NCBI RefSeq assembly: GCF_000317225.1
Contig: NZ_AJLL01000023.1
Location: forward strand, 1 to 64,000
Direction of reading: 5' to 3'
Origin: Fischerella thermalis PCC 7521
GTDB taxonomy: Bacteria > Cyanobacteriota > Cyanobacteriia > Cyanobacteriales > Nostocaceae
DNA: 64,000 nucleotides
A program made the translations under genes and the position numbers. Positions 45,503-48,890 of the stretch are shown here, piece by piece (the first letter of the stretch is position 1; each line of letters opens with the position of its first letter). The notes below the pieces were generated by a model. That model was not told the origin of the DNA. It saw only the letters and a list, made by a program, of their open reading frames with translations, and did not search any database.

Positions 45503-46603
45503 ATGATTACACAATCTTTTAACTCAGACAATATTCTGGTAGTTGATGATTCACCTGATAACGTGTTTTTAATCAAAACCATTTTAGAAGAAGAAGGCTA
45601 CACAGTTACTACAGCAGAAAATGGTGTTTCTGCATTGGCAAAAATTTCTGAAGCTAATTTTGATTTAGTGTTGCTAGATCTGATGATGCCAGGGATGGAT
45701 GGTTATGAAGTAACTAAGCGGATCAGAGAAAATAGGAGTTTGCCATTTATCCCGATTTTACTGATTACAGCCCACGATTCACCCAATGTCGCCCAAGGTT
45801 TAGATTTAGGTGCTGATGATTTTATCCGTAAACCTGTGACAGTGGATGAGTTATTAGCAAGAGTGCGATCGCTGCTGCGATTAAAGCATAGTATAGATGA
45901 AAGAGATGAAATTGCGCGTCAAAGAGAAGATTTTGTTTCTCGTCTCACCCACGACTTACGCACACCTCTAGTTGCAGCAGAACGAATGCTGACACTGCTT
46001 TCGGAAGGTGCGCTAGGGAGTTTATCAGCACCGATGCAGGAAGTGATCACCATCATGGCTCGTAGTAATACCAACCTGCTAGCGATGGTGAATACCTTAT
46101 TGGAAGTATATCGTTTTGAAGCAGGTCGTAAAACCCTAGCCTTTCAACCAGTTAATTTAGAGCAATTACTCAAAGAAGTTGCAGGCGAACTAACTCCTTT
46201 GGCCCAAGCCAAGCAACTGGCAATAAATTTAGATATTGATGAGCATTCTAGCAAAAGTACAATTGTAGGCGATCGCTTAGAACTACATCGCCTATTCACC
46301 AACTTAATCGGTAACGCCATTAAGTTTACCGATAAAGGTTTTGTCACCATAAGTCTTGTACCAATTACCAGTAATGATAGAAGTATTACGATCAAAATAG
46401 CAGATACAGGACCTGGAATTCCTCCTGAAGAACAAGCAACTTTATTTGAACGATTTCGCCAAGGTAGTCACAAGCGTTCTGGTAGTGGTTTAGGACTGTA
46501 TCTTTCTCGTCGAATAGTAGAAGCGCACAAAGGAAGTATCGAAGTAAATTCAGAGTTAGGAAAAGGCAGCATATTTACTGTTAATTTACCCATCAAACAA
46601 TAA
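45503..46603 (+). CDS. response regulator-histidine kinase hybrid
   Basis: This 366-residue soluble protein has an N-terminal receiver domain (about 10-125, phospho-acceptor Asp59 in LLDLMMPG, Lys110 in FIRKP), then HisKA with LTHDLRTPL (His150), then HATPase with NAIKFTDKGFV, DTGPGIPPEEQ and SGSGLGLYLSR. The order is receiver first, kinase second, with no sensor or membrane segment, so input probably comes from another kinase. This plan is common in cyanobacteria. The signal is unknown. No partner gene adjoins it. Confidence 0.93.
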   Translation: MITQSFNSDNILVVDDSPDNVFLIKTILEEEGYTVTTAENGVSALAKISEANFDLVLLDLMMPGMDGYEVTKRIRENRSLPFIPILLITAHDSPNVAQGLDLGADDFIRKPVTVDELLARVRSLLRLKHSIDERDEIARQREDFVSRLTHDLRTPLVAAERMLTLLSEGALGSLSAPMQEVITIMARSNTNLLAMVNTLLEVYRFEAGRKTLAFQPVNLEQLLKEVAGELTPLAQAKQLAINLDIDEHSSKSTIVGDRLELHRLFTNLIGNAIKFTDKGFVTISLVPITSNDRSITIKIADTGPGIPPEEQATLFERFRQGSHKRSGSGLGLYLSRRIVEAHKGSIEVNSELGKGSIFTVNLPIKQ

Positions 46604-48350: not shown

Positions 48351-48890
48351 TTAACTCTCCCGAATACAAGGCGCTGCTGCTAGAACTTGCGCCTCTGTTT
48401 GCATCAGTTCAATATCTGATGACAACCACTGACGAGGTGCTTGACAGTGGTGAGCCACTAATAGTCCCCATAATCCTTTGGGAGTCAAGACTGGTACAAC
48501 CAGGTTGGCGCGAACCTGCAATTGGCGCAGAAAATCTCGGTGACAAGTAGCAATTGCCTCTGATTCAATATCGGGGATTGCGCGTACCCGTCCTGCCAAA
48601 TACATGGCAGCATACTCATCATTAAAACAATCATCAGGTCCTGTTGAACCTAAGATAGAAAATTCTTCAGAACTCAAGGCTTCAAATGTTACCTGTCCTT
48701 GCCATTGATAGTAAAAGTAATACAAAACCACGCGATCCACTTGCAAAGTTTCTCTGAGACGGTTTGTTGTTTGTATGACTAAAGCGTCTCGTTCCATTGT
48801 TCCGATCAGGCGTTCAAGTACTTTTTGCAAACCGCGATCGCGATGCGCTGTGACACTAGGATTAAATTCTGGGTTGGGATGACTTTGCAC
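48351..48890 (-). CDS. single-GAF protein with DXCF and Cys-His motifs, candidate cyanobacteriochrome
   Basis: This 179-residue protein is essentially one GAF domain (about 35-172). DDCF at 86-89 matches the DXCF motif of dual-cysteine cyanobacteriochromes, and Cys116-His117 (ATCHRDFL) matches the canonical bilin-attachment pair. It is followed by the typical VRANLVVPVL and LWGLLVAHHC. VLYYFYYQWQGQV resembles the chromophore-pocket entry. With no kinase, MCP or other output domain, it would have to act through a partner. It could also be a non-bilin GAF that only retains these residues; that is unresolved. It is convergent with the aldehyde dehydrogenase. Confidence 0.8.
   Translation of the reverse strand: MQSHPNPEFNPSVTAHRDRGLQKVLERLIGTMERDALVIQTTNRLRETLQVDRVVLYYFYYQWQGQVTFEALSSEEFSILGSTGPDDCFNDEYAAMYLAGRVRAIPDIESEAIATCHRDFLRQLQVRANLVVPVLTPKGLWGLLVAHHCQAPRQWLSSDIELMQTEAQVLAAAPCIRES

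Follow-up and report, generated by a model that had tools for sequence, protein, structure and literature searches.

The usual picture of a cyanobacteriochrome is that of a sensor domain standing in cis with a kinase, a chemoreceptor or a cyclic-di-GMP enzyme, and a gene that seems to encode nothing but such a sensor raises the question of whether its product is a complete photoreceptor and, if so, how its light state is read. A gene of this kind lies in the analyzed stretch of Fischerella thermalis PCC 7521 DNA (the window, 64,000 nucleotides, a piece of a 5.4-Mb draft genome), where the minus-strand open reading frame 48351-48890 starts with GTG at 48890, stops at 48351-48353 and encodes 179 amino acids. 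We consider it likely that this product is a conserved, full-length, single-domain DXCF cyanobacteriochrome, whose ancestral kinase was lost and which works in trans.

The open reading frame and its cysteine pair

The Pfam GAF domain (PF01590, 70.6 bits) was detected at residues 34-173 of the protein (48372-48791, minus strand), and the scan of the whole frame returned no domain besides it. The typical cyanobacteriochrome architecture, in which a GAF domain is joined to a kinase, MCP or GGDEF/EAL output, was found neither here nor in the orthologs, the whole frame being one GAF domain. An in-frame stop lies only eight codons upstream of the GTG, so there is no in-frame N-terminal fusion to the 179-aa protein. 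The first-pass annotation, which had proposed a stand-alone single-GAF protein lacking any output domain, is borne out by these limits and by the Pfam result, and the missing output moreover proved to be the conserved state of the whole ortholog family. Promoter and terminator signals at the gene were no more frequent than in shuffled sequences.

The translation contains the DXCF motif exactly as it had been read, Asp86-Asp87-Cys88-Phe89 (48624-48635, minus strand), and Cys116-His117 (48540-48545, minus strand). In the phmmer alignment with TePixJ (3vv4), C88 and C116 fall on the cysteines of its DPCF and CH motifs with no gap between them, which upholds the assignment of Cys116-His117 to the canonical bilin site; Cys116 is accordingly the predicted attachment residue and Cys88 the predicted second cysteine, which would link reversibly to C10 of the bilin. 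The WXDXXL motif of the extended red/green (XRG) cyanobacteriochromes is absent from the protein, and the DXCF cysteine is present.

The best solved relatives by sequence profile are cyanobacteriochromes, and the AlphaFold2 model, which was built with 18 orthologs and reached a mean pLDDT of 68 (medium confidence), shows the GAF sheet together with a helix at each end of the chain, the N-terminal one being long (residues 11-49). The model is weak at residues 59-68 and 80-87, the latter stretch having a pLDDT below 50 and lying near the second cysteine. Its top structural matches are miRFP670nano (6mgh; Z 15.8), JSC1_58120g3 (15.7), RcaE (15.0) and TePixJ (4glq; 14.9), and Foldseek concurs, its best folds being chromophore-binding cyanobacteriochromes and phytochromes.

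Spread and conservation of the stand-alone family

Whole-genome searches located a stand-alone ortholog in 132 of the 192 genomes of the same taxonomic family, at 60-99% identity, and in 133 of the 388 genomes of the class; the closest named ortholog is that of Fischerella muscicola PCC 7414 (97% identity). The orthologs are mostly 165-215 amino acids long, with open frames of about 180-216 codons in the family-level search, and the class-level count includes a few partial copies (109-136 codons) and open frames of up to 267 codons. Below the ortholog set of the family search, the next matches fall to about 40-45% identity (1e-39) and lie mostly within long proteins. The plasmid collection contained only relatives below 60% identity, most of them labeled as larger sensors, and among the curated collections neither NCBIfam nor PHROG holds a model for the stand-alone family. 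The gene is absent from many genera and is therefore not essential.

Among 136 distinct orthologs, the residues expected of a bilin site are nearly invariant: C116, H117 and F89 were found in all 136 and C88 in 135, whereas Asp86 is looser (121/136): 15 orthologs lack it, and certain lineages have S, E or A there instead. The cysteines are encoded by TGT or TGC in different orthologs (97 and 38 at C88; 99 and 37 at C116), and the codon changes at these positions are synonymous save for one Ser at position 88. Such conservation of the cysteine, His and Phe positions is not due to chance. Tyr93 is likewise invariant in the family, and A167, L170, A171 and I176 are conserved toward the C-terminus. 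Two groups of natural variants were observed. The Mastigocoleus testarum BC008 orthologs (L014, L015) carry Ser in place of Cys88 (DESF) with Cys116 intact and so lack the second cysteine by nature, and the orthologs at L065, L063, L067 and L077 (genus g27) have the DXCF Asp replaced (GASDCF) with both cysteines kept, a natural experiment on what the Asp does.

At the aligned first codon, 78 orthologs have GTG, 30 have ATG and one has TTG, together 109 of 129, which marks a conserved start, and the pairwise dN/dS between the query and ten relatives ranges from 0.08 to 0.21. The stand-alone family is under strong purifying selection, and the shared length and start, the C-terminal conservation and the dN/dS values together indicate that the 179-aa protein is complete as well as selected. 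These results bear directly on the idea that the gene is what is left of a larger, broken photoreceptor kinase, for which a precedent exists in the same genome (contig C80, L173:1592-2482). Across many families of the class the orthologs agree in length, start and end, no kinase remnant adjoins the gene, and the frame evolves under purifying selection; the remnant reading is refuted by the conserved length, the start codon and the dN/dS of 0.08-0.21, and we regard it as scarcely credible. The precedent itself, at L173:445-2482 (G000 contig C80, about 170444-172481), comprises an OmpR-type response regulator followed, with a 17-base overlap, by a 296-aa phytochrome-type GAF protein with CH, which is interrupted within its second GAF by a short stretch of low complexity, while the remainder of the kinase (GAF-PAS-HisKA-like) follows in another frame; this locus is either a photoreceptor kinase that has broken or an artifact of the assembly.

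Placement among GAF domains

The main tree comprised 44 GAF domains, drawn from family members, solved cyanobacteriochromes, other GAF domains encoded in the genome of the query, and close matches with several domains. In it the orthologs form one clade (100/100), which joins the DXCF GAFs of multidomain proteins at 94/91; this supports placement among the bilin GAFs as a group, the branching order within the bilin GAFs being left unsettled by the tree. AnPixJ, NpR6012g4 and Slr1393 sit in a clade apart from the family. A larger and quicker tree of 126 rows concurs with the main one.

Pfam on its own calls the domain just "GAF", which would also suit an ordinary GAF that binds no bilin and has acquired its motifs by chance. 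The CH and DXCF motifs, both conserved and correctly spaced, argue against this, and approximately unbiased (AU) tests in which the family was forced into each of three groups of non-bilin GAF domains encoded by the same genome rejected every arrangement (p-AU 0.00187, 0.0474 and 0.00287). With all three groupings rejected (rounded, p-AU 0.002, 0.047 and 0.003), the clustering with bilin GAFs that the earlier reading had implied was recovered, and a non-bilin GAF is very improbable. A coarse constraint, which set the family and all non-bilin GAFs against the bilin GAFs, gave p 0.197, and the same test gave p 0.134 for TePixJ; as the constraint is unrejected even for TePixJ, the coarse test has no power.

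A domain scan of ten relatives from outside the family showed a histidine kinase ATPase domain in all nine multidomain ones, the tenth being a short single-GAF protein. On the simplest history, the family arose from a kinase's sensor domain, and the kinase was lost early. Short single-GAF proteins of 272-278 aa, with a bilin-type CH and no output domain, were also seen on a different branch (L217:3785-4618 and L220:3860-4675), and may represent a second stand-alone lineage.

A partner in trans and comparison with known systems

The genomic neighborhood was compared at 95 loci, and no constant neighbor gene was found, the commonest being present at 14 of the 95. The recurrent neighbors, whose names were read from sequence, are a MidA-like methyltransferase (14 loci), an NAD-binding dehydrogenase (14), NdhH (12) and an RsmH-like methyltransferase (8); they look like housekeeping genes, and their recurrence reflects local synteny. 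A co-directional gene lies within 100 bases upstream at 11 of 94 loci and downstream at 18 of 94. The neighbors seen in Fischerella (an aldehyde dehydrogenase, a molybdopterin oxidoreductase and a receiver-kinase hybrid) recur in only three loci. Two genes away in the window, at 45503-46603 (plus strand), a REC-HisKA-HATPase protein with no recognized sensor domain is encoded, and it is linked to the gene only in Fischerella loci. With no conserved neighborhood there is no candidate partner, and any partner would be encoded at another place in the genome.

In DXCF proteins the canonical cysteine binds the bilin at C3(1) and the second cysteine adds to C10, many members isomerize phycocyanobilin to phycoviolobilin, and the two states comprise a blue or violet one with a green, teal or orange partner state (PMC11284453, PMC5578081). 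The first-pass annotation had allowed dual-cysteine sensors only blue/green or violet/green cycles, which is too narrow, since teal and orange products are also known from DXCF members (PMC5578081). For the stand-alone family, bilin binding, color, photoconversion and partner are inferred by analogy with TePixJ-type proteins: Cys116 would attach phycocyanobilin at C3(1), the pocket would probably isomerize it to phycoviolobilin, Cys88 would add reversibly to C10, and light would toggle the protein between a blue- or violet-absorbing state and a longer-wavelength state, green or teal.

The 179-aa protein has no output domain, so its light state would have to be read by another protein; probably it is a genuine light sensor that stands by itself and depends on a partner for its effect. 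Signaling in trans is the less certain, weaker half of the explanation; it might proceed through light-dependent binding to a separate kinase, response regulator or another GAF protein, with contact perhaps made by the long N-terminal helix and the conserved C-terminal end. That these widespread output-less two-cysteine photoreceptors work in trans, as detachable subunits for light sensing, a mode unreported for cyanobacteriochromes in the searchable literature, is to us an evenly balanced proposition.

Two other roles were weighed. The protein might bind and isomerize a bilin and signal nothing, serving as a pigment carrier or store, as an isomerase from phycocyanobilin to phycoviolobilin, or as a redox or pH sensor based on the bilin; the missing output domain, the lack of a linked signaling gene and the retention of both bilin-ligand cysteines would all suit such a role. 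We hold it to be unlikely, as the nearest kin of the family are sensor domains of kinases, and a DXCF bilin stays covalently on the canonical Cys (PMC11284453), which is ill-suited to a carrier. A second possibility is that the protein pairs through its helices with other GAF sensors, for instance as a heterodimer with a multi-GAF kinase, and is a detachable sensor instead of a free messenger. The single long N-terminal helix of the model (residues 11-49) and the origin of the relatives, which are domains of multi-GAF or PAS-GAF kinases, speak for such pairing; no kinase is regularly linked to the gene, and the pairing appears quite unlikely. A conserved, complete DXCF cyanobacteriochrome acting on a partner in trans accordingly remains the preferred reading.

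Neither the fold nor the cysteine pair nor the chemistry is new, and what differs is the architecture as a whole, a conserved orthologous protein made of the sensor only. No natural stand-alone cyanobacteriochrome family was found in the open literature, and a description is possible in subscription papers, which lay mostly outside the search. A conserved sensor-only family would leave many cyanobacteria with a light input that has still to be matched to its target. As the protein is small and naturally independent, its bilin binding and color are accessible in one experiment, and it suggests itself as a small tag for optogenetics or fluorescence.

Among the known systems, the GAF domain of TePixJ (3vv4, 4glq, 4fof) likewise shows the GAF fold, the DXCF Cys and the canonical Cys-His with the same 28-residue spacing, at about 31% identity over the structural alignment. 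It serves a methyl-accepting chemotaxis protein as sensor domain, whereas in the stand-alone family the GAF is the entire protein, and it carries Trp five residues after the DXCF Cys, where the family has its invariant Tyr93. The DXCF GAFs of PAS/GAF histidine kinases (L101, 669 aa; L203, L204, L206, L209 and L212), the nearest in the tree (94/91), are 40-50% identical to the family and mostly share the two cysteines, but they carry a histidine kinase module that the family lacks. The engineered single-GAF bilin proteins, such as miRFP670nano (6mgh), also consist of one bilin GAF with no output, although proteins of the miRFP670nano type are engineered, fluorescent and without the DXCF cysteine, whereas the family is natural and conserved. 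The stand-alone receiver (CheY-like) response regulators offer a functional analogy only, as single signaling domains that need a partner; their fold is unrelated and their input is phosphorylation, whereas the input of the stand-alone GAF family would be light.
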